NCBI GenBank assembly: GCA_021792365.1
Contig: JAJYUT010000007.1
Coordinates: 1-64,000 of the forward strand
Length of the DNA stretch: 64,000 nt
Reading direction: 5' to 3'
Source of the DNA: Pseudomonadota bacterium
GTDB taxonomy: Bacteria > Pseudomonadota > Alphaproteobacteria > Dongiales > Dongiaceae
This document shows positions 16,129 to 40,274 of this stretch, one piece after another. How positions within the stretch are numbered: position 1 is the first letter of the stretch; every line of letters starts with the position of its first letter. The position numbers were made by a program, and so were the translations under genes. Below the pieces are notes generated by a model that ran no database searches, was not told the origin of the DNA, and worked only from the letters and a program-made list of their open reading frames with translations.

Positions 16129-16157
16129 TTGACAAGTTGTCTGACCTCTTGATAATT
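16129..16157 (+). promoter_or_regulatory. Sigma-70-like promoter with FCD-GntR operator, probably leaderless
   Basis: TTGACA at 16129-16134, sixteen bases, then GATAAT at 16151-16156. The spacer carries AGTTGTCTGACCTCTTG (16135-16151), which recurs in inverted orientation at 38461-38477 and with two changes at 29844-29860. GACAA-G-TTGTC at 16131-16141 is a perfect palindrome. The predicted start of transcription is within a few bases of the ATG at 16165, so the mRNA may be leaderless. A repressor here would block RNA polymerase directly. Confidence 0.65.
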
Positions 16158-16945: not shown

Positions 16946-17737
16946 ATGCGGTGGGTGCGATACCGGCATGGAGAAGCGGTGGGATTTGGCGTCCTCGAAG
17001 ACGACACGATCACTCCCGTCGAGGGTTCGCCGTTCGGCGAACATCGGCCGCTCTCCAGAAGGATCGCGCGCTCGGACGTGCGGTTGTTGCCGCCGGTCAT
17101 CCCCCCGACCTTCTACGCCGCAGGCCTGAACTATCTGGGGCACACCAAGGAGATGGTGGACGCGCTCGGCGCATCGGCAAGGCGCCCGGCCAAGCCTGAC
17201 ATCGGTTATCGCGCCATCAACGCGTTGATTGGGGACGGCGATTCCATCGTCGTGCCGAGTGACTCATCGGGACGCGTGCAATATGAGCCCGAGCTTGTGG
17301 TCGTGATTGGTCGGCAGGCAAAACATCTCTCCGAAGAAGATGCGCTGAGCTGCATCTTCGGCTACACCATCGGCAATGACGTGAGCGAGCGGAGCTGGCA
17401 GGCGGCGGACAAAACCCTTTGGCGCGCAAAGAACACCGACACCTTCAAGCCAATGGGGCCTTGGATCGAGACCGACGTAGATCTAGAAAGCTTGACGACT
17501 CGGGTGCGGCTCAACAGCACCGTCGTTGCGGAGTTCCGGACCAACGACATGGTCTTCGGTGTTGCCCGTTATATCAGCGCGATGACGCGCTATCTCACGC
17601 TCTATCCGGGCGATGTCATCTGGATGGGCGCGGATTCCCCGACGCGCGACATGGTTCCCGGTGATGAGATCGAGGTGGAGATCGACGGAATCGGTGTCCT
17701 GCGCAACCGCGTCATTGCAGAACCCGTGCGTGGGTGA
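16946..17737 (+). CDS. Fumarylacetoacetate hydrolase (FAH) family protein
   Basis: 263 aa. The family cleaves or isomerises 2,4-diketo acids and related acyl-pyruvates at a divalent metal. An N-terminal 60-residue cap is followed by FYAAGLNYLGHTKE, the metal Glu pair in YEPELVVVIG near residue 117, FGYTIGNDVSER, and the C-terminal GDVIWMGADSPT and VEIDGIG. It lies 25 bp after the SDR and overlaps the aconitase start (GTGA). In carboxylate pathways such enzymes release pyruvate or oxaloacetate from a keto acid; the exact substrate is unknown. Confidence 0.92.
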   Translation: MRWVRYRHGEAVGFGVLEDDTITPVEGSPFGEHRPLSRRIARSDVRLLPPVIPPTFYAAGLNYLGHTKEMVDALGASARRPAKPDIGYRAINALIGDGDSIVVPSDSSGRVQYEPELVVVIGRQAKHLSEEDALSCIFGYTIGNDVSERSWQAADKTLWRAKNTDTFKPMGPWIETDVDLESLTTRVRLNSTVVAEFRTNDMVFGVARYISAMTRYLTLYPGDVIWMGADSPTRDMVPGDEIEVEIDGIGVLRNRVIAEPVRG

Positions 17738-24555: not shown

Positions 24556-26034
24556 CTATCTCGTTGCGTAGTGGGCGGCGTTCTTGCCTGCGATTCGCCC
24601 ATATACGGCGCCGGAAACGAGCCCGGTTCCACCCGCATAGTTGAAGTAGAACAGGCCGCCGACCATCTCCCCAGCGCAATAGAGGCCCGGGATCGGCTGG
24701 CCGTCGAGATCGATCACGTGCGCGTCGGTGTCGATCTTTATGCCACCGAAGGTGAAAGTGACGCCGCAGGTGATTGCATAGGCTTCGAACGGTCCCTCGT
24801 CGATCCTATTCGCCCAGTTCGACTTGGGCACCTCCAGTCCCTGGGTGCAGCGGCCGTCCTTGACGCTCGGATTGAAGGGTATATCGGTGCGCACGGCTGC
24901 GTTGAAGCGCTTGACTTCATCCAGGAACGCTGTCGCATTCACACCTTCAAGCTTGCGAGCCAGTTCCTCGATTGTTGGGGCCGTCACTTTCGTCACGCGC
25001 TTGATCCGATACTCGTCGCGCAGCATCGGGATGGTCTTGGCATCGAAGATCTGCCAGGCGAACTGATTAGGCTGTTCCAGGACGACCTTGCCGTACTTGG
25101 CGTAGGTGTAGTTCCGGAAATCGGCGCCTTCGTCCAGGAAACGCTTGCCGTTGGCATTCACCATGATGCCGAACGGATAGGAATGCTTCTGGAAGTTCTC
25201 GCCGATCTCCAGGTCGCCGAACTCCGGCGCATTGAGGTCCCAGCCGACCGCATGGCAGCCGGACCAGTGACCGCAGGGACGCGCGCCCGCATCCATCGCC
25301 ATGCGGATGCCATCACCGTTGTTGAACTTGGTGCCGCGAACCTTGGCCAGATCCCAACCGGGGCCGAGATAACGCGTGCGCCAATCGACATTGGAGGAGA
25401 ATCCGCCACAGGCCAACACCACTGCACCGGCCCTGAGCTCCTCCTCGCGGCCGGCATGCCTCACCACCACGCCGGCAACACGCCCGTTCTCCTGGATCAG
25501 GTGCAATGCGCGCGTAGCGTAGCGGATCGGAATGCCCTTTGCCATCGCGGCCTTGTTCTCGAGCTCAACGAGCCCGGCGCCGCCGCCCCAACTTTCCAGC
25601 GCAAGCCCACCCCAGAACTTCAATCTCCCATCGATCTTGAACGATTGGCGATAGAGCGGCATGAAGCGAACGCCCTTGGACTGCATCCACAGCAGCGTGT
25701 CATAGCTCGCGCGGACGAATGTCTCGGTCAGGTCCGGATCGGTGCGGTAGTCGGTGACTCGGCCCATGTCGTCGAGGTACTGCTCCTCGGCATAGCTGCC
25801 GAAATCGAAGGTCGACAGCTCGCTCTCAGGGACTTCCGGCACGAGACGGCGGACGTCGTCGACGCCACGGAACGCGAATCGCAGGACGCCCGATGCAAAC
25901 CGGCTGTTTCCGCCATGCTCTTCTTGCGGGGCGGTCTCCAGCATCACCACGCGTGCGCCGTTCTCTTGCGCCGAAAGCGCGGCGCAGTAGGCAGCATTGC
26001 CGGCTCCGACCACAATTACATCATAAACAGACAT
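24556..26034 (-). CDS. tcuA: FAD-dependent dehydrogenase, TcuA (tricarballylate dehydrogenase)-like
   Basis: 492 aa. FAD motif VIVVGAGNAAYCAALSA at the N-terminus, NSRFASGVLRFAF near residue 45, a fumarate-reductase-like capping domain, and C-terminal GGIKIDTDAHVID and LYCAGEMVGGLFYFNYAGGTGL, typical of the flavocytochrome c/fumarate reductase superfamily. TcuA oxidises tricarballylate to cis-aconitate. The LeuCD-like genes directly upstream could hydrate such an enoate and the TTT genes downstream could import it. A TcuB electron acceptor is not found in the window. Other saturated di- or tricarboxylates are possible substrates. Confidence 0.82.
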   Translation of the reverse strand: MSVYDVIVVGAGNAAYCAALSAQENGARVVMLETAPQEEHGGNSRFASGVLRFAFRGVDDVRRLVPEVPESELSTFDFGSYAEEQYLDDMGRVTDYRTDPDLTETFVRASYDTLLWMQSKGVRFMPLYRQSFKIDGRLKFWGGLALESWGGGAGLVELENKAAMAKGIPIRYATRALHLIQENGRVAGVVVRHAGREEELRAGAVVLACGGFSSNVDWRTRYLGPGWDLAKVRGTKFNNGDGIRMAMDAGARPCGHWSGCHAVGWDLNAPEFGDLEIGENFQKHSYPFGIMVNANGKRFLDEGADFRNYTYAKYGKVVLEQPNQFAWQIFDAKTIPMLRDEYRIKRVTKVTAPTIEELARKLEGVNATAFLDEVKRFNAAVRTDIPFNPSVKDGRCTQGLEVPKSNWANRIDEGPFEAYAITCGVTFTFGGIKIDTDAHVIDLDGQPIPGLYCAGEMVGGLFYFNYAGGTGLVSGAVYGRIAGKNAAHYATR

Positions 26035-26057
26035 TCACCCGCTCCAATTGTTCGTTT

Positions 26058-26570
26058 TCACGCGCCGGCAGAATCGATCCCCGGCCCGATCAGGCCTTCC
26101 GATTCGAGCAATGGAAAAATTCCGCCGCCCTGCATCAGCTTGAGCAGCGCCTCGGGAATGGGAACGCCAGTCAGCGTCTGCCCCGTACGCAGATTGCGGA
26201 CACTCGCTGCTGACAGCGTGATCTCGGCCACATCTCCTTCATCGAAGGCAGCGCTGACGCCCGGGCATTCCAGGGCGGCGAGGCCAAAGCTGACGCAATT
26301 CCGGAAGAACAAGGGATTGATCGAGTCCGCGATCAGGCAGCCGATTCCGAGCGCGTTGAGGGCGAGCGGTGCGGGTCGGCTCGAGCCCGTTCCGAAATTG
26401 CGACCGCCTACGATCACGTCGCCGCTCTTCACAAGATCGACCCAGCCAGGCCGGTTCGCTTCGAAGACATGCTTCGCCTGCTGTTCCTTGGGCAGGTACA
26501 TGAACGGAGCCGGCAGGATGAGATCGGTATTGATGTCGTCGCCGAACTGCCAGGCCTTGCCGGTGATCAT
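26058..26570 (-). CDS. LeuD-like hydro-lyase small subunit
   Basis: 170 aa, the swivelling domain of a two-subunit aconitase-superfamily enzyme. Seen: FGDDINTDLILPA at residues 9-21, GGRNFGTGSSR near 56 (substrate-contact loop) and NPLFFRNCVSFGL near 87. Isopropylmalate, homoaconitate, citraconate and dimethylmalate hydro-lyases share this build; the substrate loop is not the classical YLRLTGR type of LeuD, so leucine biosynthesis is unlikely. The start overlaps the LeuC-like stop by 4 bp. Confidence 0.9.
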   Translation of the reverse strand: MITGKAWQFGDDINTDLILPAPFMYLPKEQQAKHVFEANRPGWVDLVKSGDVIVGGRNFGTGSSRPAPLALNALGIGCLIADSINPLFFRNCVSFGLAALECPGVSAAFDEGDVAEITLSAASVRNLRTGQTLTGVPIPEALLKLMQGGGIFPLLESEGLIGPGIDSAGA

Positions 26571-27847
26571 CCAGCGCGCTCCATGGAAATGAATTCGCCA
26601 GGATGGGTTACCCGCCCGGTCAGAGCGGAGGCCGCCACGGTGGCTGGCGAAGCCATGTAAACGGACGCGCTCGGATCACCCATGCGTCCCTTGAAATTGC
26701 GCGTGCTCGCGGTGATGCACACTTCGTTCGGGCCGATGACGCCCATATGTCCGCCCTGACATGCGCCGCACGTCGCATTCGTCACCACGGCGCCGGCTGC
26801 CATTAGGGTCTCGATGTAGCCCGCCTTGAGCGCCTGCCGATAGACTTCCTGCGAACCCGGAGTCACGAGAAACCGCACGCCAGCGGCGACCCGTCGGCCG
26901 GCCACAACCTCCGCGGCGATCTGCAGGTCGTAGAGATTGCCGTTCGCGCAGGAGCCGATAAAGGCCTGCTGTATGAAGACGTCGGCGACGTCGCCGACCT
27001 TGACGGAATTGTCGATCACCCGATCCGGCAAAGCCACGAGCGGTTCAATCGCGCCGAGGTCAAGCTGGCGACGGTCGGCATAGACGGCATTGGGATCTGG
27101 ATTGTAGGTCTGATAGGGACGATCCGTGCGTGCGCGCAGATAGGTGTCGAGAATGCCGTCCGCCTCGAAAATGGTGAACTCGGCGTTGAGTTCGGTACCC
27201 ATGGTCGCCAGCGTTCGGCGCTCGTCGATGCTGAGCGATGCAAGCGCGGGGCCGCCGAATTCGACGTTGTAGTTGGAGTGGTTTCCATAGATCCCTGCAA
27301 TATGCAGGAACAGGTCCTTCGGCGTCACGCCGTGCCGGAGTCGGCCAACCAGGTCGTACCGGATCGTTTCGCACACCCGGTACCAAGTGGAGCCTTTGGT
27401 CAATGCATAGATCACATCGGGGCCGCCGGTACCTCGCGCAGCGCAGTTGAGCGCGCCGGCGCTGCCCGCGTGTGAGTCTGAGCAGACCAGAACCGTGCCC
27501 GGCAGGGCATAGGCACGCTCGGCCACGATGACGTGCGCAATACCCTGGTCATATCCGATGTCATGGAATCGCTTGATGCCGAATTTCTCGACGAACGCGC
27601 GGCCGACCGAATGCGCGCGGGCGCAGTATTGATCCGGCGCGGGGGCGCGGTGGTCGTAGACCACCACCACGTTATCGGGCTTCGCGACCGACTTGATGTC
27701 GCGCCAGTAGGCGGGGAAGAAGTTGCCATCATAGAGCACGACGGTGTCGACGTCGACCACCACCATGTCTCCGGGTGACGTCCGCGATCGCCCGCTGGCG
27801 CGCGCCAGGATCTTCTCCATGATGGTCATGCCCATGGGCGTATGCAT
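26567..27847 (-). CDS. LeuC-like hydro-lyase large subunit
   Basis: About 426 aa from the ATG at 27847; ATGs at 27835 (better spaced from GGGAGG) and 27910 are alternatives. The family N-terminus GMTIMEKILARASG is plain. Iron-sulfur residues lie in FIGSCANG and NATCGACQGGHMG, and VCSDSHAGSAGALNC carries the substrate histidine loop. The C-terminus has TASTRNFKGRMG. It is the first gene of the leftward unit that runs through LeuD-like, TcuA-like and TctB-A-C. The enzyme probably hydrates or dehydrates the compound imported by the transporter; a catabolic homologue such as a citraconate or dimethylmalate hydro-lyase fits as well as cis-aconitate chemistry. Confidence 0.88.
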   Translation of the reverse strand: MHTPMGMTIMEKILARASGRSRTSPGDMVVVDVDTVVLYDGNFFPAYWRDIKSVAKPDNVVVVYDHRAPAPDQYCARAHSVGRAFVEKFGIKRFHDIGYDQGIAHVIVAERAYALPGTVLVCSDSHAGSAGALNCAARGTGGPDVIYALTKGSTWYRVCETIRYDLVGRLRHGVTPKDLFLHIAGIYGNHSNYNVEFGGPALASLSIDERRTLATMGTELNAEFTIFEADGILDTYLRARTDRPYQTYNPDPNAVYADRRQLDLGAIEPLVALPDRVIDNSVKVGDVADVFIQQAFIGSCANGNLYDLQIAAEVVAGRRVAAGVRFLVTPGSQEVYRQALKAGYIETLMAAGAVVTNATCGACQGGHMGVIGPNEVCITASTRNFKGRMGDPSASVYMASPATVAASALTGRVTHPGEFISMERAG

Positions 27848-28147
27848 TCCTCCCAACCAATTCCCTTGTTCTTGGAGCCCAGTGTGCTGGGATTCGGCGC
27901 TCGCGTCCATTTCGCGGTAACGCGTTTTAATTAGGCCGGCTCTAATAGCCGCAGACCGGAGATTGGTTGCCGTTCCGCGCGCATCCGCCTGCAAACGCGC
28001 ACGTTTCCGCATCGGCTCGCGCGGGCGCCGCCACCTCTTCTATGATCTTCGCAATGCGCGCGATGCTTGCGAGCGGGCTTGGCGTCGCTATGGTGGGCTG
28101 CCGTGTCCATCGGATTCGCGGTTCTTTCCGTACTGCTTCTTGGTGAA

Positions 28148-29335
28148 ATGATGTCGGCTGATGAACGAAGATGGCGCTCTTGGTTCCGGCTTCTGCTGGT
28201 ACAGAGTTTCATCCTGCATTCGCTGACTGTCATTGTGAGGGTTGCGCTCTCTTATCGAATTCTCGAGATCGGCCTCGATTCCTGGTGGGTCGGCATTGTC
28301 GGTGGAGCGTTCGGCGCTCTTCCGGCCGTGCTCGGCATGCATCTCGGGGTGGTGATCGATCGCAATGGTGAGGCTCGTCCCCTCATCGCGGGCGCCGTCA
28401 TCATCCTGGCTGGCGCAGTCGGACTCTGGATCTCCGGCGACAACTTGGCGATCCTGCTCGCGTGCAGCATTGCGCTCGGCTTGGGCCAGTTCATCTGCGT
28501 GGTGGCGCAGCACAGCGTCATCGCCCGTTCCGCCGCGCCGTCGAAACGGGACAATGCGTTCGGTCTGTTTACGGTCGTAATCTCTCTGGCGCAGGCGGTA
28601 AGCCCCGGTCTCCTGGCGCTATTCGATCGCGAATCGGCCGTACCGGATACCCAAGGCATTTTTCTTCTTGGCGTCGGAGCGGCAGTCCTGCTGCTGCTGT
28701 CGATTGTCCTCACACGCTTGCCGGACCATGCGCCCGCTCCCGACCGAAGGGGCCTCTGGCGGGTAATGCAGGCGCTCGTCAGGATCCGAGGATTCAATCT
28801 GTCCTTGCTTGCGGCCCTCGTGATCGTTGCGGGCATCGACCTCCTGGTGATTTATCTGCCGGTCTTTGGGGCCGAGCGCGGAATCTCGGCCTCTGTAATC
28901 GGGTATCTTTTGGCGGTTCGCGCGGCGTCATCGATCGCGTCGCGCCTGTTGTTCAGCCGGTTGATACGCCTGCTTGGCCGCGGCGCGTTGCTGATCTTGT
29001 CCATGCTGCTCGCTGGGTGCGGAATCGCGTTGCTTCCACTGACGACCGATATCTACCTGCTGACGCTCGAGCTCATAGCGACAGGATTTGGCCTCGGTAT
29101 CGGGGCGCCTCTGACCCTTTCCTGGATCTCCGAGACGTCGCCGGTCGGCATGCGCGGGGTAGCAGTGTCGGTCAGGCTGGCGGCAAACCGGATTGGCCAG
29201 GCGGTATTGCCGGTTGCAGCCAGTGCCGTCATCGTGGGCGTCGGCGCCGGCGGGGTGTTCTGGGCGATGGCAGCAATATTGGGGCTTTCAGCCTTGCTCT
29301 GTTGCGGCCACTTCGCACGCGAACGTGGCCGTTGA
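28148..29335 (+). CDS. Major facilitator superfamily transporter
   Basis: About 395 aa from the tandem ATGs at 28148-28153, with an optional N-terminal extension to 28067. Twelve hydrophobic segments in two halves; the A-motif-like loop is GVVIDRNGEARPLIAG near residue 75, and the second half has GFGLGIGAPLTLSWISE near 315. The substrate is not readable. It diverges from the LeuC-like gene and meets the AroQ-like gene tail to tail with a 4-bp gap, so it may export or import an intermediate of either pathway. Confidence 0.85.
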   Translation: MMSADERRWRSWFRLLLVQSFILHSLTVIVRVALSYRILEIGLDSWWVGIVGGAFGALPAVLGMHLGVVIDRNGEARPLIAGAVIILAGAVGLWISGDNLAILLACSIALGLGQFICVVAQHSVIARSAAPSKRDNAFGLFTVVISLAQAVSPGLLALFDRESAVPDTQGIFLLGVGAAVLLLLSIVLTRLPDHAPAPDRRGLWRVMQALVRIRGFNLSLLAALVIVAGIDLLVIYLPVFGAERGISASVIGYLLAVRAASSIASRLLFSRLIRLLGRGALLILSMLLAGCGIALLPLTTDIYLLTLELIATGFGLGIGAPLTLSWISETSPVGMRGVAVSVRLAANRIGQAVLPVAASAVIVGVGAGGVFWAMAAILGLSALLCCGHFARERGR

Positions 29336-29339
29336 GGCA

Positions 29340-29777
29340 TCAGCGCTTCGGGCCTATGACTTCCTTTAGCCCCACAAGCGCCAGCTTGTAGCCCGTAACG
29401 CCAAATCCTGTGACAGTTGCCCGGCACACTTTACTCAGATCCGATTGTATCCCGCGATTGGCGGGGTTGGAGACGTGCACCTCCACCACTGGAAAACCGA
29501 CCTGCTCGATCGCGACCGTAAGGCCGCGATAGCCGATCGAGAAGCCGGCGGGGTTGATAACCGCGCCGGCGAGTCCCCGCTCCGCGGCGTCATACAGCTT
29601 GTTCACGATTTCGCCTTCGAAATTGGACTGGACGATTTCGGCTGAGAACCGGAGCTCGCGCGCTGCTTCCTCGATCTGCCTGTCGTACTCGGGCAGGGTC
29701 ATCGAACCGAATACCTCGCGCTTCACCTTGCCGCGCATGTTCATGCCCAGACCGTGGATGACCAGAACTCTGTCCAC
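29340..29777 (-). CDS. AroQ-fold protein lacking type II dehydroquinase catalytic residues
   Basis: 145 aa from the GTG at 29777, which has GAGAGGG upstream; longer ATG forms add an unrelated N-terminus. It keeps the AroQ frame: LVIHGLGMNMRG, QSNFEGE near residue 57, NPAGF near 80 and the conserved VEVHVSN near 103. However, the usual R-E-P-x-I-Y-G-S loop reads KVKREVFGS, so both the catalytic arginine and tyrosine are lost (tyrosine to phenylalanine). It probably performs another reaction on a cyclic or keto acid. It is transcribed away from the second TTT operon across an FCD-type operator. Confidence 0.8.
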   Translation of the reverse strand: MDRVLVIHGLGMNMRGKVKREVFGSMTLPEYDRQIEEAARELRFSAEIVQSNFEGEIVNKLYDAAERGLAGAVINPAGFSIGYRGLTVAIEQVGFPVVEVHVSNPANRGIQSDLSKVCRATVTGFGVTGYKLALVGLKEVIGPKR

Positions 29778-29843
29778 TGGAACCCTCTCAAGATCAATGG
29801 TGGAGAATGGAGTTGCGAGCCGCCAACATATCACCTATCTTGT

Positions 29844-29860
29844 CAAGTGGTAAGACAACT
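29844..29860. promoter_or_regulatory. Putative FCD-GntR operator, divergent aroQ-like / tctB promoter
   Basis: CAAGTGGTAAGACAACT matches 15 of 17 bases of the site at 38461-38477 and of the inverse of the site at 16135-16151. It lies 67 bp from the AroQ-like start and 79 bp from tctB. It is embedded in TTGTCAAG, a partial palindrome. Binding by the GntR protein at 39570 is inference. Confidence 0.6.
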
Positions 29861-29938
29861 TAGAAGCCGACAAGCCGTTCGCTCGCTCCACGAGCCCGGC
29901 CGTCGAACGACCGGGATCGGCTAGGTCAGGGGGGTGTC

Positions 29939-30430
29939 ATGGAAATCAATCGGGACCGGATCATCGTGGCGGTTTCCATCGTCTTTGCCGCCGCTTACCT
30001 CTATGCGACTGGCCAGATCACTATGCTCGATTTTGGCGATCCGATCGGTCCGCGCTTGTTTCCTTACGTGGTCTGCTCGCTCTTCGTACTGGGCGCGCTG
30101 ATCTTGTTGCTGGAGAGTCGCTCTTCACGCCGCACTACCGCCGATGACTCGATCGCCGATGCGCCAAGACAAAGCAAGAATGCGCAGCAGCGCCGCAGCA
30201 TCTGGATGATCGCTGCCGTCTTGGGCTGGACGTTGCTCTACCTGCTTGTCTTCGAGCGATTGGGTTACATCATCTCGACCGTCACGTTCCTGCTTGGCCT
30301 CACGTTGTGCTTTTACAGGGGCAGATGGCAAATCAGCTTGGCCGTCTCGGCCCTCGTGCCCATTCTCGGCTATCTGGTATTTCACCATCTGCTGAACGTC
30401 AATTTGCCGGCCGGACTTATGCCTCTTTAG
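29939..30430 (+). CDS. tctB: Tripartite tricarboxylate transporter small subunit (TctB)
   Basis: 163 aa with four hydrophobic segments (residues about 8-25, 38-58, 85-125 and 135-158) and a charged RSSRRTTADD loop. LDFGDPIGPRLFPYVV near residue 33 is typical of TctB. First gene of a five-gene rightward operon (TctB, TctA, TPP enzyme, DapA-like, IlvD-like), nine bases before TctA. Its binding protein is encoded 8 kb away at 38545. Confidence 0.85.
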   Translation: MEINRDRIIVAVSIVFAAAYLYATGQITMLDFGDPIGPRLFPYVVCSLFVLGALILLLESRSSRRTTADDSIADAPRQSKNAQQRRSIWMIAAVLGWTLLYLLVFERLGYIISTVTFLLGLTLCFYRGRWQISLAVSALVPILGYLVFHHLLNVNLPAGLMPL

Positions 30431-30439
30431 GCCGCGCAG

Positions 30440-31999
30440 ATGGAAACTTTCGATCATATCCTGAACGGGTTTGCCGTCTGCTTGCAGCCGACGAATCTTC
30501 TGTTCACGTTCGTGGGCGTTCTGCTGGGGACCATCATCGGCGTCTTGCCCGGGATCGGTTCGGCGGCCGGGATTGCCTTGCTTCTGCCGGCCACCTTCGG
30601 CATGGACCCGACCGCCGCCTTGATCATGATCTGTGGGATCTTCTACGGCGCGAAGTACGGCGGTTCTACGGCTGCCGTCCTGATCCGCACACCTGGCGAT
30701 GCGTCGTCGGTGATGACATCGCTGGACGGCTACGAAATGGCCCGCAAAGGCCGTGCGGGCGCTGCTCTGGCAATCGCCGCGATCGGATCGTTCATAGCCG
30801 GCTCCATGGGTGTCGTCGCGCTGACGGTTTTCGCCGTGCCTCTGTCCTCGGCTGCGCTGAAGTTCGGGCCGGCCGAATACTTCATGCTGTTGCTGTTCGC
30901 GATGACATGCGTCTCGTCGCTCGCAGGCAAGTCGCTGGGAAAGGGCATCCTCTCGGCTGGCCTCGGCCTTATGCTCGCAACGGTGGGCATCGACCTGCAA
31001 AGCGGCCAGCAGCGCTACGTGATGGGTATCATCGAGCTGCAGGACGGCGTCAACTTCATCATCGTCTCGGTCGGCATGTTTGCAGTCGCGCAGGTTCTCC
31101 GAGGTCTGGAGTCGATCTATCGTGGAGATGCGGCGCAGGCCATGAAGATCAACGGCCCATTGTGGCTGACGAGAGAGGAATGGCGCCGCTCCATCGGTCC
31201 GGTGTGGCGCGGCGGCATCATTGGGTTCCTGATCGGCATCCTGCCCGGCGCCGGCGGGACGATTTCCGCGATCATGTCGTATGTCACGGAGCGAAGACTT
31301 TCGAAAAATCCGGAGTCGTTCGGCAAGGGTGCCATTGAAGGCGTTGCCGGGCCGGAAGCCGCCAACAATGCGGATACCGCTGGAGCGATGGTGCCGCTCC
31401 TGACCCTCGGTGTCCCGGGCGGCAGCACGACAGCCGTGCTCCTCGGGGCCTTCATCATGTTCGGGCTGCAGCCCGGACCGCTGCTGTTCCAGGAACGGCC
31501 TGACCTGGTCTGGGGAATTGTCGATAGCATGTATATCGGCAATCTCATTCTGCTGATCCTCAACCTGCCGCTCATCGCACTATTCACGCGGCTCCTCTAC
31601 ATTCCAAACGGGCTGCTATACCCGCTCATCCTCACGATCTCGGTAATCGGCGCATTCGCTGTGAATTTGAGCACGTTCGATCTGTACATCATGCTCATAT
31701 TCGGCCTACTGGGCTACGTGTTCGAGAAGCTGGAGATCCCCATTCCTCCGCTGCTCCTGTCCCTGGTCCTCGGCGAGATGATGGAGCAGTCCTTTCGGCG
31801 CGCGCTGACGATCTCGAATGGCGACGCGACGGTCTTCGTCGGCAGTCAGATCTGCGTGGTCCTGCTGATCATGTCCGTGATCTCGTTGCTCGGTCCATTT
31901 GGCTGGAGCCAGTTGAAGCGTCTCCGTGTGTTCCAGTCACTTCTCTCGTCCAACCGCCCTTCCGACAAGCCGGAGATCGGTGCAGGAAACGCGAAGTGA
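30440..31999 (+). CDS. tctA: Tripartite tricarboxylate transporter large permease (TctA)
   Basis: 519 aa. GVLPGIGSAAGIALLLPATF near residue 34, AKYGGSTAAVLIRTPGD near 72, LPGAGGTISAIMSY near 268 and EGVAGPEAANNADTAG near 300 are the TctA signatures; about twelve hydrophobic segments. Distinct from the copy at 22451, so the two operons likely import different carboxylates. The 123-bp gap to the next gene shows no terminator. Confidence 0.94.
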   Translation: METFDHILNGFAVCLQPTNLLFTFVGVLLGTIIGVLPGIGSAAGIALLLPATFGMDPTAALIMICGIFYGAKYGGSTAAVLIRTPGDASSVMTSLDGYEMARKGRAGAALAIAAIGSFIAGSMGVVALTVFAVPLSSAALKFGPAEYFMLLLFAMTCVSSLAGKSLGKGILSAGLGLMLATVGIDLQSGQQRYVMGIIELQDGVNFIIVSVGMFAVAQVLRGLESIYRGDAAQAMKINGPLWLTREEWRRSIGPVWRGGIIGFLIGILPGAGGTISAIMSYVTERRLSKNPESFGKGAIEGVAGPEAANNADTAGAMVPLLTLGVPGGSTTAVLLGAFIMFGLQPGPLLFQERPDLVWGIVDSMYIGNLILLILNLPLIALFTRLLYIPNGLLYPLILTISVIGAFAVNLSTFDLYIMLIFGLLGYVFEKLEIPIPPLLLSLVLGEMMEQSFRRALTISNGDATVFVGSQICVVLLIMSVISLLGPFGWSQLKRLRVFQSLLSSNRPSDKPEIGAGNAK

Positions 32000-32122
32000 T
32001 CCGTCGTCCGTCCCATTGAGCCAATTTAGAATATGTGATTTCGAAGCATGACCAAGTCAGCATCCGACGCATCGGGCATGGCGATGCACCCTGGCCCCGC
32101 ACGCCGGGAAGGCGAGACTCAT

Positions 32123-33790
32123 ATGGAATATGGACGCAGCGGCGCTCGGCTTCTGGTCGATGCTTTGCAGTTGCACGGAGTGGATCGCGTTTTCGGTGTG
32201 CCGGGTGAGTCCTACCTCTCGGTATTGGACGCGATGCTCGACACCGATGGAGCAATCGAGTTCATCGTCTGCCGGCAAGAAGGCGGTGCTGCCTACATGG
32301 CGGATGCTTACGGCAAGATGACCGGCCGACCTGGAATTTGCTTCGTGACCCGCGGCCCGGGCGCATGCAACGCCTCGATCGGGCTGCACACCGCATTCCA
32401 GGATTCGACGCCGATGATTATGTTCATCGGGCAGGTTGGGACTGATGTTCTGGAGCGCGAAGGTTTCCAGGAGATCGACTATCGCCGCATGTTCGGCCCG
32501 GTCAGCAAGTGGGTGGCGCAGATTGACCGGGCCGATCGCGTGGCGGAGTTCGTCAGCCGTGCTTTTCATACTGCGGTCAGCGGCCGCCCTGGCCCGGTTG
32601 TGCTGGTGTTGCCGGAAGACATGCAGCAGGCTTCATCGATGCCGGTTATCGCCCGGCCGTACACGCGCGTGTCCGCTCATCCCGGGCCCGCTGTCATGCA
32701 GGACATTGCTTCAAGACTCGCCGCGTCGAAAAAGCCGCTCTTGATACTGGGCGGTAGCGGCTGGACGAAGGAGGCTTGCCAGAGCGTGGCAGGTTTTGCC
32801 GCTCGGCTCAATCTTCCCGTCGCCTGTTCGTTCCGGCGCCAGGACTTGTTCGACAATCGCGATCGTCACTACGTCGGCGATCTTTCGCCCGGCATGAACC
32901 CCTCGCTCGCGCAGAGGGTGAAGGACGCGGACCTCCTGATATCGATCGGGTCACGTCTCGGCGAACTGCAGACTGCCGGCTACAGCCTGCTGGATATACC
33001 CATGCCGCGTCAGAAGCTCATCCACGTCCTTCCAGGGGCCGAGGAGCTTGGTCGGGTCTATCAGGGCGACCTGCTGATCAATGCGGGGCTCCCGGAGTTC
33101 GCGGCAGCGTTGCAGGCCCTGCCGCCTGTCGAAGTCGCGTGGCACGACTGGACCGCAGACGCACGGCGCGACTACGAAGCCTGGCAGGAAACGCAGCCGC
33201 AGGTTGGAACGCTCAATTTGAGCGAGGTCATGGCGTACCTGCGGGACCGGCTGCCGGCCGAGAGCATCGTCACGAACGGAGCCGGCAACTATGCGATCTG
33301 GGTGCACAGGTTCTACCGGTATACGGGCATGCGCACACAGCTGGCTCCTACCAGCGGAGCCATGGGTTATGGGGTGCCGGCCGCCGTGGCGGCCAAGCTG
33401 CTCGAGCCAGACCGGCCCGTCCTCTGCTTTGCCGGAGACGGTTGCTTCATGATGAACGGGCAGGAGTTGGCGACCGCGGCACGCTACCAGCTGAAGATCA
33501 TCTTCATCGTCATCAACAATGGCATGTACGGCACGATCAGGATGCATCAGGAGCGGGAATACCCCGGACGTGTAAGCGGGACGATGCTCTGCAATCCAAG
33601 CTTTACGAAGCTGGCTGACGCCTACGACATGCATGCCGAGCGCGTGGACCGTACAGTGGATTTCGCACCCGCCTTCGAACGTGCCTGGGCCGCGGAGAAG
33701 GCTGCCTTGATCGAGCTGACGCTGGATCCGGACGCCATCTCACCGCGTACCACCATCAGCGCCCTGCGCGCGCAAGCCAAAAAGAGGTAA
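32123..33790 (+). CDS. Thiamine-diphosphate enzyme, acetolactate synthase-like
   Basis: 555 aa from the ATG at 32123, which has GGAAGG ten bases upstream; an ATG at 32048 adds 25 unsupported residues. Three-domain build: the PYR domain with the catalytic Glu in CRQEGGAAYMADAYGK near residue 55, a central domain, and the PP domain with GDGCFMMNGQELATAA near 440 ending in INNGMYG for the Mg-TPP site. It lacks features that would fix it as acetolactate synthase and has no small subunit nearby. In this operon it may decarboxylate or cleave a 2-keto acid derived from the IlvD/DapA-like steps. Five bases separate it from the DapA-like start. Confidence 0.9.
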   Translation: MEYGRSGARLLVDALQLHGVDRVFGVPGESYLSVLDAMLDTDGAIEFIVCRQEGGAAYMADAYGKMTGRPGICFVTRGPGACNASIGLHTAFQDSTPMIMFIGQVGTDVLEREGFQEIDYRRMFGPVSKWVAQIDRADRVAEFVSRAFHTAVSGRPGPVVLVLPEDMQQASSMPVIARPYTRVSAHPGPAVMQDIASRLAASKKPLLILGGSGWTKEACQSVAGFAARLNLPVACSFRRQDLFDNRDRHYVGDLSPGMNPSLAQRVKDADLLISIGSRLGELQTAGYSLLDIPMPRQKLIHVLPGAEELGRVYQGDLLINAGLPEFAAALQALPPVEVAWHDWTADARRDYEAWQETQPQVGTLNLSEVMAYLRDRLPAESIVTNGAGNYAIWVHRFYRYTGMRTQLAPTSGAMGYGVPAAVAAKLLEPDRPVLCFAGDGCFMMNGQELATAARYQLKIIFIVINNGMYGTIRMHQEREYPGRVSGTMLCNPSFTKLADAYDMHAERVDRTVDFAPAFERAWAAEKAALIELTLDPDAISPRTTISALRAQAKKR

Positions 33791-33795
33791 CTCCC

Positions 33796-34716
33796 GTGAA
33801 GACCACTCCTGTCACCAGTGCCGATCTGGCGCGATCCGTTGTCGCTGTGCCGCCGCTTGCGCGCAACGAGGATCTGTCCCTGAATCGCGAAGCCAATGCC
33901 GCATTGATCCGCTATCTGGAAGCAGCCGGCATTCGCAGTATCATGCATGGCGGCAATGCGAACTTCTATCACGTGCCGGTCAGCAGCTATCAAGCCACGC
34001 TGGAAATGCTCGCAGAACTCGCGGGGCCGGAAACGTGGCTTCTCCCTTCCGCGGGACCGGACTATGGCAGGTTGATGGATCAGGCCGGGATTCTGCGCGA
34101 TCTGCCGTTTCCCACTGCGATGGCGCTACCCATGTCGTTCCCATTCACGGATGCGGGCCTTGCAACCGGGCTGCGCCACTTCACCGACAAGCTTGGAAAG
34201 CCGGCGGTGATCTACATCAAGGCGACGGACTATATTCATCCCGACACGCTCGGGAAGCTGGTCGAGGAGCGGCGTGTGGCGGCGATCAAATACGCAGCGG
34301 TGCGGCCGGACCCGGCTGACGATCCCTATCTTGAAGCCGTTGCGAAGGTGGTTCCGCCCAGCCTGCTGGTCAGCGGAATCGGTGAGCGGCCTGCCATCGA
34401 GCACATGCGCGATTTCGGGCTGGTCAGCTTCACGTCGGGATCGGTCTGCGTTGCGCCGCGCAGTTCCATGAAACTCCTCAGGCTGCTCGGCGAGAAGCGC
34501 TATTCGGAGGCCGAGCAAGTACGCAACGTATTCATTCCACTGGAAGATTGCCGGGACTCCATCAGTCCCATCCGGGTATTGCATGATGCGGTCACGTTGG
34601 CCGGGATCGCCGACATGGGACCCATGCTGCCGCTGCTGACCGGGTTGGACCAGGCGCAACGCGGTCGTGTGGCCGGAGTCGCAAAGGCGCTTCGGGCCGC
34701 AGACCTGAACGTGTGA
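33796..34716 (+). CDS. DapA-family (dihydrodipicolinate synthase-like) lyase
   Basis: 306 aa TIM barrel. The Schiff-base lysine is in VAAIKYA near residue 160, and the barrel tyrosine may be that in AVIYIK near 138. The usual GTTGE loop reads [10 protein letters not shown] near residue 50, which sets it apart from DapA and NanA. Family members split or dehydrate 2-keto acids. It lies between the TPP enzyme and the IlvD/Edd dehydratase, so a 2-keto-3-deoxy acid from IlvD is a reasonable substrate. This is inference. Confidence 0.85.
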
Positions 34717-34727
34717 GGGGAGCAGGG

Positions 34728-36470
34728 ATGTCGAGTTCCCGACGCAAGTCGCCCGAACAATTGCGAAGTCACCGCTGGTACGGTGCGAAAGACCTGCGTT
34801 CGTTCGGCCACCGCTCGCGCACCATGCAAATGGGGTACACGGCGGCCGATTATGGCGGTAAGCCGGTCATCGCTATCATCAATACCTGGAGCGATATCAA
34901 TCCCTGCCACACCCATTTCAAGCAACGCGTCGAAGAGGTGAAGCGCGGCATATGGCAGGCCGGCGGATTTCCCATCGAGATGCCCGCAATGACATTGTCG
35001 GAGCCGTTCCAGAAGCCGACGACCATGTTGTACCGCAATCTCCTGGCCATGGAGGCGGAGGAACTGCTGCGTTCCTATCCCGCTGATGGCTGCGTGCTGA
35101 TGGGCGGCTGCGACAAGACCACGCCGGGCCTTGTCATGGGCGCGCTGATGATGGATCTGCCGACGCTGTTCCTGCCGGCCGGGCCGATGCTGCGCGGGGA
35201 CTGGAACGGAACCGTGCTCGGCTCAGGCAGCGACACGTGGAAATATTGGGCCGAGCTGCGCGCCGGCACGATCACCGAAGCCGATTGGCATGGCATCGAA
35301 TCGGGCATCGCCCGATCTCCAGGGCATTGCATGACGATGGGGACGGCATCCACCATGACCAGCGCGGTCGAGGTGCTGGGTCTGTCGCTGCCGGGCTCAG
35401 CGTCGATCCCAGCCGCGGACTCGCGCCATGCGCAAATGGCGAGCGATACCGGCCGGCGCATTGTCGAAATGGTGTGGGATGACCTGAAGCCTTCGGACGT
35501 CCTCACGGCGGCGTCGTTCGACAATGCGGTCACCGTCGTGCTCGCGTTGTCCGGTTCCACGAACGCGCTGGTCCATCTGATCGCGATGGCGCGGCGGGCA
35601 GGGGTGGATCTCGATCTCGGTCGGTTCGACGAGCTCGCGCGACGGACGCCGGTGCTGGCGAATGTGCGGCCCGCCGGCAAATACCTGATGGAGGACTTTT
35701 TCTATGCCGGCGGGCTTCGAGCCTTGATGCGCCAGCTGGGAGATCTGCTTGACACGAGCCAGCGGACGGCAGCCGGCATCACCTTGGAAGAGGCGATTGC
35801 CTCAGCCCGCGTCTTCAATGACGATGTGATCCGCAGCCGCGACACCGCCTTGGTGGCGTGTGACAGCTTGGCGGTCCTGCGCGGCAACCTTGCGCCGAGC
35901 GGCGCGGTCATCAAGCCTTCGGCGGCCGATCCGAGCCTTCTGGTGCATTGCGGTCCCGCAGTCGTCTTTGAGAATTATGCGGATCTGGCGGCCCGAATCG
36001 ATCTCCCGGATCTGGAGGTCTCGCGTGACAGCGTTATCGTCCTGAAGAACGCCGGACCGCGTGGCGCACCCGGAATGCCTGAATGGGGCCAGTTGCCCAT
36101 ACCGAAAAAGCTGCTCGAGCAGGGGGTGCGCGACATGGTGCGCATCTCGGATGCCCGCATGAGCGGCACCAGCTACGGGGCGTGCGTGCTGCATGTCGCA
36201 CCGGAATCCTATGTCGGCGGCCCGCTCGCGCTGGTGCAGGACGGCGACCTGATCGAGCTGGACGTGCCCCGGCGCAAGCTTAACCTGCTGGTCAGCGATG
36301 ATGTTCTTGCGAAGCGTCGCGCCGCATGGCGGGAGCCTGTGGCCCATTTCGACCGCGGCTTCGGCTGGCTCTATGATCGCCACGTGACCCAGGCCGACCA
36401 GGGATGCGACTTCGACTTCATGGAACGGCAAACCGCGCGATCCCGGCCAAAAGATCCGCAGATCTACTGA
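34728..36470 (+). CDS. IlvD/Edd-family sugar-acid dehydratase
   Basis: 580 aa from the ATG at 34728, behind a GGGGAGCAGGG ribosome site. Cluster-binding cysteines lie in DINPCHTH near residue 65, GGCDKTTPG near 125 and [12 protein letters not shown] near 197; the C-terminal region holds [16 protein letters not shown]. The pattern resembles arabinonate/xylonate dehydratases rather than the branched-chain dihydroxy-acid enzyme. It would turn an aldonic acid into a 2-keto-3-deoxy acid. Last intact gene of the operon; the broken LhgO gene points towards it. Confidence 0.9.
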
Positions 36471-36484
36471 GCCGCTGCACCGAA

Positions 36485-37432
36485 TCAGGCGGCAGCGCGA
36501 CTGAGCGTCCTTTCCACGATCATCCTTGCGATCGGGATAGCGGAAGTCGCCGCGGGCGAGGGCGCGTTGCAGACATGAAGCATGCGTTCGGTCTGCAGAA
36601 ACAGGAAGTCATGGATGAGCTCGCCCGTGCTCGTCACCGCTTGTGCACGTATCCCTGCCGGCTCGGGAATCAGATCCGCGCGGGTCAGCTCCGGACAGTA
36701 TTTTCTGCACTCCTGCAGATAGAAATGTGGGAACAGTGAATTGCGCCATTCCGTAATACTCGCCGCGGAATGGAACAATCCGATGTGTAATCTCCAGGCC
36801 GGCCAAGCGCGCGAGACGGTCTGATTGCAGGCCCGCACAGGCGATGATCTGTCGGGCGCGATAGCTTTCTCCTCCCGCAATCACGGTCACCTCGCCGGCC
36901 CGCTCGCTAATTGCGGTCACGGGCGGCCGAACAGGACATTTCCGCCGGAGCGTTCGATCACCCTGAGCATCGCATGGCACACGTCGACATAGCTTACGAT
37001 GCCCGTGGACTTGACGAACAACGCACCCTTGCCGACCGTGTTCGGCTCGCGCTCGTGAAGCGCCGCGGCGGACAGGCGATCAACTGCGATACCGTTCTGC
37101 GCCGCGCGCTTGGCCAGGTCGGCCATGCGCTGCAGTTCGGTATCGTTGGTCGCAACGAGCAGCTTGCCGCAGGTTTCATAGCGGATGCCGTGCTCGTCGC
37201 AGAACGCCTTGGTGGCATCTGCTCCACGCCGGCATAGCTGCGCCTTCAGGCTGCCGGGTGCATAGTAGATGCCGGCGTGGATGACGCCGCTGTTGCGCCC
37301 GGTCTGATGCCGTGCGATGGCGGACTCTTTCTCCAGGAGCAGCACGCTCGCGCCTGGCCGAACCGCCAGCAATTCCATAGCGGTGGCGAGGCCGACGATG
37401 CCGCCGCCGATGACAATGAACTCGTACAGCAT
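36485..37432 (-). pseudogene. lhgO: LhgO-like L-2-hydroxyglutarate oxidase, frameshifted and internally deleted
   Basis: Reading starts at the ATG at 37432 with the FAD motif FIVIGGGIVGLATA and RHQTGRNSGVIHAGIYY, then stops near 36917 right after VLFGRP. One base missing there moves the homology to another frame ([13 protein letters not shown] to VPFRGEYY), and after about 36765 it resumes in a third frame with [12 protein letters not shown] and LHVCNAPSPAATSAIPI. Part of the middle of the protein is gone; a normal LhgO is about 400 aa and only about 315 codons remain. The gene cannot make an active oxidase. Confidence 0.85.
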
Positions 37433-37443
37433 ATGATGAGTGC

Positions 37444-38388
37444 TTACGGCCCGATCAGCGGAAGGCCGAGCGATTGGCTGCGAGCCCATGCCCGGCCGCG
37501 CGCATGTGGCTCCGCCGGCTTGGTAAGGTCGTAGTAGGGGCGCGTCGGCTCTTGGGCCTGCGCACGGTGCATGATGCGGTAGGAGTGGGGATCGAAATTG
37601 TCGCGGCGGTGCATGGTGCAACGATTGTCCCAGATCACCACGTCGCCCACCTGCCATTTGTGGTGCCACGCGAGGGAGCTCTGGGTCGCATGGGCCCAGA
37701 GCTCGTCCAGCAGGCGCTCCGATTCTTCGATCTCAAGCCCGGGAAGGTAGGAATTCAGCCGCCGGCCCAGATAGAGGGCATGACGTCCGGTTTCGGGATG
37801 CGTGCGAATGATCGGATGGATCGCTCCCGGCGATTTCCGGAGGTCGTTGATGGGCTGGAATCCCGCCCGCAATTGGCCGCCGGCGGTATACGTCGTGTCG
37901 TTCTTGACGGTAAGCCCTTCGATCCGGCGACGCAGGGCCGGGGCCATCGTCTCCAGCGCCAGATACATGTTGGAAAAGCCGGTGTCGCCGCCCCAGTTCG
38001 GTACCTTGAGGCAGTAGAGTACGCTCGCGGACGGGGGATACTCGCGGTACGAGGTGTCCGAGTGCCAGAAAACCTCATCGTCACCAAGGCCGCCGATCGG
38101 AACACCGTTCTCGATGACATTCGACACGACTGAAATGTACTTGTTGTCTCGTGGCTTCTGACCCACGCTGACAATCGGAACCTCGTCCAATTGGCCGAAG
38201 CGACGGCTGAATTCCATCTGCTGGTTGTCGGTGAGCTTTTGTTCCCGAAACACGAGGACGAGATGGTCCAGCCATGCCTGCCGGACCTCCGCGAACAGCT
38301 CGTTGTCAACGCGCGTAAGGTCCACACCCACGATCTCGGCGCCCAGCGGCGCATTGATCGGGCGAATATCCAAGGCGGTCCCGCCCAT
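37444..38388 (-). CDS. TauD/TfdA-family Fe(II)/2-oxoglutarate dioxygenase
   Basis: 314 aa from the ATG at 38388, with GGAGAAG upstream. The iron triad is WHSDTSY near residue 108 (His and Asp) and NRCTMHRRDNF near 255 (His); the 2-oxoglutarate arginine follows in HSYRIMHRAQ. N-terminal ALDIRPINAPLGAEIVGVDL is typical of the family. The enzyme hydroxylates an alkyl or sulfonated/aryloxy substrate, often releasing an aldehyde. It faces the TctC gene across the 38.4-kb operator region and ends 12 bp before the LhgO remnant. Confidence 0.92.
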   Translation of the reverse strand: MGGTALDIRPINAPLGAEIVGVDLTRVDNELFAEVRQAWLDHLVLVFREQKLTDNQQMEFSRRFGQLDEVPIVSVGQKPRDNKYISVVSNVIENGVPIGGLGDDEVFWHSDTSYREYPPSASVLYCLKVPNWGGDTGFSNMYLALETMAPALRRRIEGLTVKNDTTYTAGGQLRAGFQPINDLRKSPGAIHPIIRTHPETGRHALYLGRRLNSYLPGLEIEESERLLDELWAHATQSSLAWHHKWQVGDVVIWDNRCTMHRRDNFDPHSYRIMHRAQAQEPTRPYYDLTKPAEPHARGRAWARSQSLGLPLIGP

Positions 38389-38424
38389 TCTCTTCTCCGT
38401 GAACTGGTCCTCCGACCTCACAGC

Positions 38425-38483
38425 AAGATAAATCTCGTCGTCATGTTGTCAAGTAGATGACAAGAGGTCAGACAACTGATAAA
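38425..38483. promoter_or_regulatory. Divergent tauD-like / tctC promoter region with FCD-GntR operators
   Basis: On the minus strand TTGACA (38452-38447), sixteen bases, TATCTT (38430-38425) forms a good sigma-70-like promoter for the dioxygenase. CAAGAGGTCAGACAACT at 38461-38477 is identical to the inverse of the site at 16135-16151. TTGTC (38446) and GACAA (38459) form a second inverted pair overlapping the -35. GATAAA at 38478 is a possible -10 for tctC. Confidence 0.65.
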
Positions 38484-38544
38484 TCTGTCCGGCGTTAAAC
38501 CGTCGGCCCGGCAAGTGCCGATCACGAAAACCTGGGAGGGATGG

Positions 38545-39540
38545 ATGAATCATACGCTCAAAGGCGCTGCGCTGAGTTTCGCGACGATGTGTCTGGCAAT
38601 TGCGGGATTGCCGCCGGCATCGGCGGACCCCACTGGGCCAAGCTCCGTGGAACTTGTCGTTCCCAATTCGCCCGGAGGAGCCGCCGATACCATCGCCCGC
38701 GTCATGCAGCGCAACTGGACCGAGGGAAAACTGGTCAGCGCGCCAAGCGTCGTCATCAATAAGCCCGGCGGCGGAGGCAATGTGACGCTGTCGTACCTCG
38801 AGCAGAAGGAGGGTGAGGGCGGCGTCCTCGCCGTAACGTCGATCACCCATCAGCTCAACTACATCGTCGGTACGAGCGACTACAAGTATTCCGATTTTAC
38901 ACCGATCGCGATGTTGGTGGGGGATTACGTCGGATTTGCCGTAAAGGCCGGTTCCCGGTTCGAAACCGCCCAAGATCTGGTGGATGCTTTGAAGAAGGAT
39001 CCGCAATCCGCCAGCATCGCCATTACGGGGATTGGGGGGTTGAACCATATACCTGGCCTTCAACTGGCTCGGGCGATTGGCGTGGACGGCAGGAAGCTGA
39101 AGACGCCGGTATTCGATTCGACGGGTGACAGCGCGACCGCCATGCTCGGGGGCCATGTCGACGTGGTGATCGGTAGCGCAGGAAACCTTGCCGGCCATGC
39201 CGAATCCGGTCTGATCCGAATTCTTGCCGTAACCGCGCCCGAACGGCTTCCCGGCAAGCTCGCCGACGTGCCGACGTGGTCTGAACTGGGCTATGACGTC
39301 GTATTCAGCAGCTGGCGCGGATTGTGGGGCCCGAAGGGAATGACCCCGGAACAGATCGCGTTCTGGGACAAGACGATTGCGGAAAGCGGGAAGGCGCCAA
39401 GCTGGCGGAAAGAGCTCGAGGCGAACACCTGGACCGACTCGATAAAGTCGGCGGCTGAAACCCGTGCCGAGCTAGATGCCTTGCAGAAGGAGCTGGTATC
39501 GCTGCTGACGGAACTTGGTCTGGCGAAACGGACCGATTGA
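38545..39540 (+). CDS. tctC: Tripartite tricarboxylate transporter substrate-binding protein (TctC/Bug)
   Basis: 331 aa from the ATG at 38545, directly after GGGAGGG. Sec-type signal (LKGAALSFATMCLAIAG) with cleavage near ASADP. Bug fold: LVVPNSPGGAADTIAR near residue 35, INKPGGGGNVT near 70 and ITGIGGLNHIPGLQLA near 158. It is the probable receptor for TctB-TctA at 29939-31999, separated from them by the metabolic genes but tied to them by the shared operator. Confidence 0.9.
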   Translation: MNHTLKGAALSFATMCLAIAGLPPASADPTGPSSVELVVPNSPGGAADTIARVMQRNWTEGKLVSAPSVVINKPGGGGNVTLSYLEQKEGEGGVLAVTSITHQLNYIVGTSDYKYSDFTPIAMLVGDYVGFAVKAGSRFETAQDLVDALKKDPQSASIAITGIGGLNHIPGLQLARAIGVDGRKLKTPVFDSTGDSATAMLGGHVDVVIGSAGNLAGHAESGLIRILAVTAPERLPGKLADVPTWSELGYDVVFSSWRGLWGPKGMTPEQIAFWDKTIAESGKAPSWRKELEANTWTDSIKSAAETRAELDALQKELVSLLTELGLAKRTD

Positions 39541-39569: not shown

Positions 39570-40274
39570 CTACCGTTCTCCGCTCTCGGTCAGTACCCTG
39601 GTCTTGGCGTTGCGTAGATGCATCTGCATCGCGTCGCGCGCGCCTTCGGGATTGGACTCGCGGATATGGATCATAATCTGCTCATGTTCCCGCTGCACAC
39701 GCCGCAGCCGCTCGGCGCTCACCTTCAGCGACAAACGACGGGCAGTCGTAATGCCTTTCGACACATGCGGCGAAAGGACCTCCATTGCGCTGTAGAACAG
39801 TTCGTTCTTGGCTGCAATCGCAATGGCGAGATGGAAATTGATGTCGGCTTCAACGCCAAGCTCGCCCTTCTTAATCGCCTTTTCCAGCTTGTCGTACGCA
39901 CGTCCGATATGGGTAAGGTCCTGCGCCGTGCGCCGGATCGCCGCCAAGGCCGCCGCCTCGCTTTCCAGCGCCAGGCGAAACTCGAACGTCCGCATCAGTC
40001 CGGCGATGCTGCCGGTCGGAGCGATATCGAACAGAGCCTTGTTGGGCCTGTGCTGGACATAGCTTCCCGACCCGTGCCGAGAAACCACGATACCGTCGCT
40101 GCGCAGGCGCGAGAGCGCCTCTCGAATGATCGGGCGCGAGACATCAAAGACGCCGGCCAGTTCCTTCTCGGACGGCAGGCGCGCCCCCTCCGAGAACTCT
40201 CCAGACATGACCTGTTTCAGGATGCTCTCGTAGACCTGATCCGCCAGTTTCTTGGGTCTGATAAGTTCCAGCAT
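39570..40274 (-). CDS. FCD-domain GntR-family repressor
   Basis: 234 aa. Winged helix at residues 20-75 (LPSEKELAGVFDVSRPIIREAL, then GSGSYVQ), followed by an all-helical FCD domain with metal-ligand candidates in DINFHLAIA near 145 and REHEQI near 195. FadR/FCD proteins release DNA on binding an organic acid. Divergent from the SDR at 40399 by 124 bp. The only FCD repressor in this block, so it is the best candidate for the motif CAAG[AT]GGT[CA]AGACAACT. No copy of the motif is visible before its own gene. Confidence 0.92.
   Translation of the reverse strand: MLELIRPKKLADQVYESILKQVMSGEFSEGARLPSEKELAGVFDVSRPIIREALSRLRSDGIVVSRHGSGSYVQHRPNKALFDIAPTGSIAGLMRTFEFRLALESEAAALAAIRRTAQDLTHIGRAYDKLEKAIKKGELGVEADINFHLAIAIAAKNELFYSAMEVLSPHVSKGITTARRLSLKVSAERLRRVQREHEQIMIHIRESNPEGARDAMQMHLRNAKTRVLTESGER

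Follow-up and report, generated by a model that had tools for sequence, protein, structure and literature searches.

The window, the whole 64,000-nucleotide stretch of DNA that was analysed, carries at 29340–29777 on the minus strand an intact open reading frame for a 145-amino-acid protein with the fold of type II 3-dehydroquinate dehydratase (AroQ). The frame starts with GTG at 29777 and its stop codon ends at 29340, both coordinates being exact. Its GC content by codon position (0.65/0.40/0.75) is of coding type and resembles that of the neighbouring genes, and a simple scan of 29300–30000 detected no sigma-70 promoter and no intrinsic terminator. The AroQ-like gene is divergent from a tctB-tctA-TPP-dapA-ilvD series encoding TTT transport subunits and catabolic enzymes, and an operator lies between the two. 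The genes and sites concerned are as follows.

16137–16155, minus strand: second operator copy; its end lies 9 bp before the SDR start (13 bp for the exact 15-mer)
16165–16920, plus strand: SDR oxidoreductase, the first gene behind operator copy 2
16946–17737, plus strand: fumarylacetoacetate-hydrolase-family (FAH) protein (PF01557, 196.6 bits)
17734–20403, plus strand: aconitase, AcnA-type (1010 bits, cutoff 945)
29340–29777, minus strand: AroQ-like gene ('HGAGM' clade), 145 aa; lacks N12, R19, Y24, H81, D88 and the R112 segment
29783–29789, minus strand: Shine–Dalgarno-like GAGAGGG, separated by 5 nt from the GTG of the AroQ-like gene (read directly)
29840–29858, plus strand: operator copy TTGTCAAGTGGTAAGACAA, between the start codons of the divergent AroQ-like gene and tctB2
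29939–30430, plus strand: tctB2, TTT small membrane subunit (Pfam PF07331, 86.1 bits)
30440–31999, plus strand: tctA2, TTT large membrane subunit (named by reading; 35.7% to an annotated TTT permease in locus L068)
32048–33790, plus strand: thiamine-pyrophosphate (TPP) enzyme (NCBIfam PRK08199 subfamily, 875 bits, cutoff 539)
33796–34716, plus strand: DapA-like aldolase/dehydratase, very divergent (PF00701 16.5 bits, below the cutoff of 22.1; phmmer match to 3d0c, 2.4e-8)
34713–36470, plus strand: IlvD/EDD dehydratase (L-arabinonate dehydratase model, 986 bits, cutoff 882)
37444–38421, minus strand: TauD/TfdA-family dioxygenase (PF02668, 231 bits)
38461–38475, plus strand: third operator copy; the tauD-like gene and tctC2 diverge on either side of it
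38515–39540, plus strand: tctC2, TTT periplasmic receptor (named by reading; tblastn matches to TctC genes elsewhere)
39570–40274, minus strand: GntR/FCD regulator, the presumed operator binder

Neither tctA2 nor tctC2 has an NCBIfam match, and homologues of the DapA-like protein (43–51%) occur on Sinorhizobium, Neorhizobium, Thalassospira and Caballeronia plasmids. Beside ilvD, at 36609–37430 on the minus strand, lies a broken L-2-hydroxyglutarate oxidase-like gene (lhgO), truncated and divided between two frames. The minus strand at 24556–28012 encodes a TcuA-like FAD dehydrogenase and LeuC/LeuD-like subunits with their own TctABC.

The AroQ-like gene had been predicted to share its operator with the TTT/IlvD operon, and genome-wide searches bear this out. 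The sequence CAAGNGGTNAGACAA has three exact copies in the 5,428,897-base genome, all within the window (16137, 29844 and 38461), where simple arithmetic gives about 0.16 expected; the copy at 16137 precedes the SDR-FAH-aconitase genes. With up to one mismatch allowed, a reversed control pattern gave 5 matches against 3, so that single near-matches mean nothing and the case for the operator, whose pattern was drawn from these same three sites, rests on the copies being exact, intergenic and clustered. Its likely binder, we infer, is the GntR/FCD protein encoded at 39570–40274, because GntR homologues (42–44%) share 19-kb plasmid loci with DapA homologues in all four cases examined and because one of these four outside loci, and only one (L088), has an operator-like site, with two mismatches, between gntR and dapA.

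By fold and descent, the window protein belongs with the type II dehydroquinases. It scores 105.7 bits against the Pfam DHquinase_II model (gathering score 23.3), and its AlphaFold2 model, computed from a 40-row alignment (A3) that left out the orthologues described below and plasmid rows, has the AroQ fold with a pLDDT of 94.1 and a pTM of 0.89. The first 50 rows of a Foldseek and VIA-align comparison of the predicted structure with the PDB are all type II dehydroquinases, the best match having a Z of 24.7 and 1.2 Å over 142 residues. The fold read from the sequence in the original prediction is thus confirmed, as are the QSN loop and the VEVHVSN histidine motif, which are retained together with N75, E99, H101, S103 and R108. 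By the residues that define dehydroquinase catalysis, the protein fails to qualify, and its score against the NCBIfam TIGR01088 aroQ equivalog model (104.9–105.5 bits) stays below the cutoff of 169.85.

The loop GKVKREVFG replaces the usual G-x-REP-x-x-YG in the window protein, so the loop arginine and tyrosine are indeed missing (R19 to Val, Y24 to Phe); that part of the original prediction was correct but incomplete, since N12 (Gly), H81 (Ile) and D88 (Val) are substituted as well and the FRH segment with R112 is deleted. (Residue numbers follow the M. tuberculosis enzyme; in the window protein itself lid positions are numbered 1 lower, and from 75 onwards the two numberings coincide.) Among 49 aligned homologues, 15 of a subfamily that we call 'QGANM' and 34 others, N12, R19 and Y24 are each present in 49 and D88 in 48. 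A further 30 homologues, from what we infer to be a gammaproteobacteria-like class, all have R19, Y24 and D88, and N12 is present in the 27 whose alignment covered it, so that across the 79 homologues checked outside the window protein's own clade R19 and Y24 occur in 79/79 and D88 in 78/79. H81, by contrast, is present in only 26 of the 49. Its loss alone is therefore not diagnostic, and we rejected it as a key sign, the 23 homologues without it including copies in quinate-type clusters.

In the parts of the mechanistic account in PMC6011038 that bear on these positions, Y24 and R19 of the lid and D88 of the neighbouring subunit are essential in type II dehydroquinase, with Y24 as the base and D88 deprotonating it; N12 helps to keep a water in place at the C3 carbonyl, and of the ring hydroxyls the one at C5 is bound by H81 and R112 and the one at C4 by D88. 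The carboxylate is bound by N75, S103 and the backbone of 102/103, and N75 also positions the C1 hydroxyl for protonation by H101 (PMC6011038). Setting these roles against the residues lost and retained suggests that the window protein has given up the enolisation and ring-hydroxyl half of the site and has probably kept the acid and the half that binds the carboxylate and alpha-hydroxyl.

Two further AroQ proteins are encoded in the same genome. One, at C3:297182, is canonical, with all ten checked residues, and the shikimate pathway therefore does not need the AroQ-like gene; a housekeeping dehydroquinase was rejected as its identity on account of the lost catalytic residues and this canonical copy. 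The other (C3:27483–27893, locus L065) has Phe in place of H81 and lies with TRAP transport genes in a cluster that reads as quinate/shikimate-to-protocatechuate breakdown; its neighbours, named by reading and by comparison with the annotated locus L059, are dehydroshikimate-dehydratase-like, shikimate-dehydrogenase-like and protocatechuate genes. The H81-to-Phe change is common in the AroQ copies of quinate-type clusters.

Profile searches of 160 genomes of one proteobacterial order (that of genome G411) returned 13 matches, 5 of which, in five genomes, are orthologues of the window protein with 52–56% identity. Cutoffs differed between searches. At the cutoff of 1e-46 applied to this order and the family of G1063, the weakest orthologue passed with 7.5e-47; a still weaker one could have gone undetected, which makes 5/160 a lower bound. 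The order is believed to be Burkholderiales because an AroQ there resembles a Caballeronia AroQ. Four of the five orthologues come from one genus (g814) and one from another family, so they amount to about two independent outside contexts. Other searches found no orthologue in the window's family (17 genomes, the same 17 being drawn for its order), class (385) or phylum (398), in a small class (78), in the order of G674 (397), the class of G402 (239) or the family of G1063 (295), or in the plasmids and viral contigs searched, and a single-protein scan of genome contigs gave relatives of 31–42% only.

All six proteins, the window protein and the five orthologues, lack N12, R19, Y24 and D88, and none of the five orthologues has His at 81. 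They share 54 invariant columns, and among the residues invariant in the six and present in at most 1 of the 49 others are G11, R15, F23, Y31, G82, Y83 and Q92, with R15 and Y83 found in 0/49. All six carry the signature H8, G11, R15, F23, Y31, Y83 and Q92 with N75, E99, H101 and R108, by which we define 'HGAGM', a definition drawn from the same six sequences. The tree, computed with a bootstrap that had yet to converge completely, groups the six in one clade (support 100/100) and makes HGAGM and QGANM sisters (99/93); when the orthologues were left out, the window protein had a long branch (2.4 changes per column) and already joined QGANM. Pairwise dN/dS, calculated with a Nei–Gojobori script and with several dS values near saturation, is 0.08–0.37 in all 15 pairs. 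Because the orthologues share the losses and dN/dS is well below 1, sequence comparison supports the residue loss as a conserved subfamily trait under purifying selection. The clade-only polar residues R15, Y31, Y83 and Q92 lie in or near the lost regions, which suggests a rebuilt site.

The transport gene tctC is the next gene on the same strand in all five orthologue loci, with gaps of 0, 119, 32, 52 and 24 bp by tblastn. When 23 QGANM loci were examined in the same way, 21 had no tctC within the stretch covered (7.6–19.9 kb) and two had it 3.7 and 5.2 kb away. The orthologue genomes look rich in tctC (1–5 per fetched locus), which makes the adjacency less improbable than it appears. Given tctC beside all five orthologues and an operator common to the window's tctBA, tctC and TPP/DapA/IlvD genes, the link of the AroQ-like gene to TTT carboxylate transport is real.

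The partner enzymes vary. MR/MLE (enolase-superfamily) genes lie near the orthologue in four of the five loci, adjoining it in L156, L157 and L159 and lying 6.6 kb away in L158; that of L156 was named by likeness to those of L157 and L159. L155 and L156 have TauD-like genes, and L155 also an SDR and an HpaI-like aldolase gene. The order in L156, on one strand, is tctC, AroQ-like gene, MR/MLE, tauD, and a Variovorax plasmid has tauD, MR/MLE and tctC with no AroQ-like gene. The window's IlvD, DapA and TPP proteins have no tblastn match in any of the five orthologue loci (0/5). The co-occurrence of homologues with these three genes, raised in the original prediction, was therefore not seen, and we rejected them as standing partners. 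Repurposing within a carboxylate regulon, the broader idea, is supported in part, in that dehydroquinase function is very unlikely from the residues, the loss is a conserved trait and the TTT link is real.

The sister group QGANM is a broad second AroQ subfamily, recognizable by QGANM...GRRQPEIYG...NPAGFxYAG...LRDC and found at loci L036/L060, L039/L061, L041/L062, L043/L063, L044/L064, L056, L067–L069, L098–L103 and L134–L141. All five genomes checked have a canonical AroQ in addition to it; it often lies in catabolic clusters, and it is annotated as dehydroquinase (type II 3-dehydroquinate dehydratase in the plasmid records). Its members have lost the R112 segment and mostly H81. An EthD/DUF4286-like gene lies directly upstream of the QGANM gene in three loci (L098, L100 and L056; the L100 reading is without a Pfam match), close relatives (65–67%) of the window's TcuA-like protein occur with a TPP enzyme in two (L147 and L150), and the Paraburkholderia caledonica plasmid gene (L066:7998–8503) is covered by two overlapping annotated frames, a probable frameshift.

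Since its relatives show the same residue loss and adjoin an organic-acid transporter gene, the window protein probably represents, with them, a distinct protein family linked to organic-acid breakdown. The explanation we favour, at a probability of roughly 55%, is that the HGAGM clade descends from type II dehydroquinases, no longer performs dehydroquinase chemistry and probably serves as a lyase or isomerase for a TTT-imported hydroxy- or keto-carboxylate. The TTT system would import the hydroxy- or keto-acid, whose carboxylate the AroQ-like protein, most likely in the cytoplasm, would bind through N75 and S103. The E99–H101 dyad, with R15 and Y83 as candidate new residues, could then carry out a proton-transfer step (elimination, hydration or tautomerisation), before or beside a sugar-acid-type dehydratase, IlvD in the window and MR/MLE elsewhere, that would handle the dihydroxy-acid. 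A more far-reaching version, to which we give somewhat less than even odds, holds that HGAGM is an undescribed AroQ-fold enzyme family that has dropped the enolisation machinery, kept the alpha-hydroxy-carboxylate half-site and E99–H101, gained the R15/Y83 pair and serves as an obligatory early step on TTT-imported acids upstream of IlvD- or MR/MLE-type dehydratases.

The same residues could also belong to a non-catalytic ligand binder, whose carboxylate site would be occupied by the acid that is taken up or by a product of the pathway, and which would tune a partner such as TctC-linked uptake, the dehydratase or the regulator. The loss of the catalytic base and lid arginine from all six proteins while the carboxylate-binding N75 and S103 are kept, and the constancy of tctC while the partner enzymes vary, speak for such a role; we consider it a fair rival, though a less likely one, as E99 and H101 are invariant though not needed merely for holding a carboxylate and the Arg and Tyr residues specific to the clade point to a remodelled active site. 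Kinship with QGANM raises another possibility: as is probable for QGANM itself, the protein may act on a ring compound, as a modified dehydratase within the breakdown of alicyclic or cyclitol-type substances. QGANM genes lie near shikimate-dehydrogenase-like, FAD_binding_2, SDR, TPP and EthD-like genes, and the TcuA-like protein with relatives in two QGANM loci is encoded 3.3 kb from the window's AroQ-like gene. QGANM, however, keeps N12, R19 and Y24 (15/15) and D88 (14/15), of which HGAGM has none, and no ring-specific gene was recognized in the window regulon or the five orthologue loci; we regard a ring substrate as rather improbable.

That the clade still acts as a dehydroquinase, with other residues (Y83 and R15 or K17, for instance) standing in for the base and the lid arginine, draws on the clade-invariant R15 and Y83, absent from all 49 others, and on the retained H101 and N75. 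It would have to accommodate the further loss of D88, N12, H81 and the R112 segment in a genome that also encodes a canonical AroQ and, within a quinate/protocatechuate cluster, another copy, and in a regulon with no shikimate gene, and we judge it highly improbable. Decay of an aroQ duplicate might be suspected from the broken lhgO gene nearby and from the long branch of the window protein before orthologues were found. Against it stand the five orthologues, which share the losses, the dN/dS of every pair, well below 1, the 54 invariant columns, the intact frame and the Shine–Dalgarno-like site; we find it scarcely credible, and as far as computation goes we rejected it once the orthologues were found.

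A conserved clade without R19, Y24 and D88 shows that the AroQ fold can be redirected. The clade also offers an annotation marker: homology labels such genes type II 3-dehydroquinate dehydratase, and a metabolic model would list them as a shikimate step. Some proteobacteria have very many TctC receptors, most of which, to our knowledge, have no known ligand; a protein that travels with a TctC gene gives a starting point for identifying what that receptor imports. The literature that we searched on AroQ paralogues describes none that lacks the catalytic residues or is tied to TTT.

Among known systems, the type II 3-dehydroquinate dehydratase (AroQ, EC 4.2.1.10) shares with the window protein its whole-length fold, its Pfam family, N75, E99, H101, S103 and R108 and the QSN and HxSN motifs; it differs in having N12, R19, Y24, D88, H81 and the R112 segment, in the equivalog cutoff that the window protein stays below, and in a shikimate rather than a carboxylate-transport context. 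The catabolic dehydroquinase at C3:27483 is alike in Pfam family and in the loss of H81, but keeps N12, R19, Y24 and D88. QGANM is a sister clade that also lacks the FRH/R112 segment, mostly has M12, I48 and G109 in common with HGAGM and is likewise found in catabolic clusters, two of its loci having TctC further off. It has Q8 where HGAGM has H8, G11, R15, F23 and Y83 distinguish HGAGM, and adjacency to tctC is found in HGAGM only. The window protein lacks the QGANM signature (Q8, N11, R18, Y23 and D88) and is thus a sister of that subfamily, not a member.
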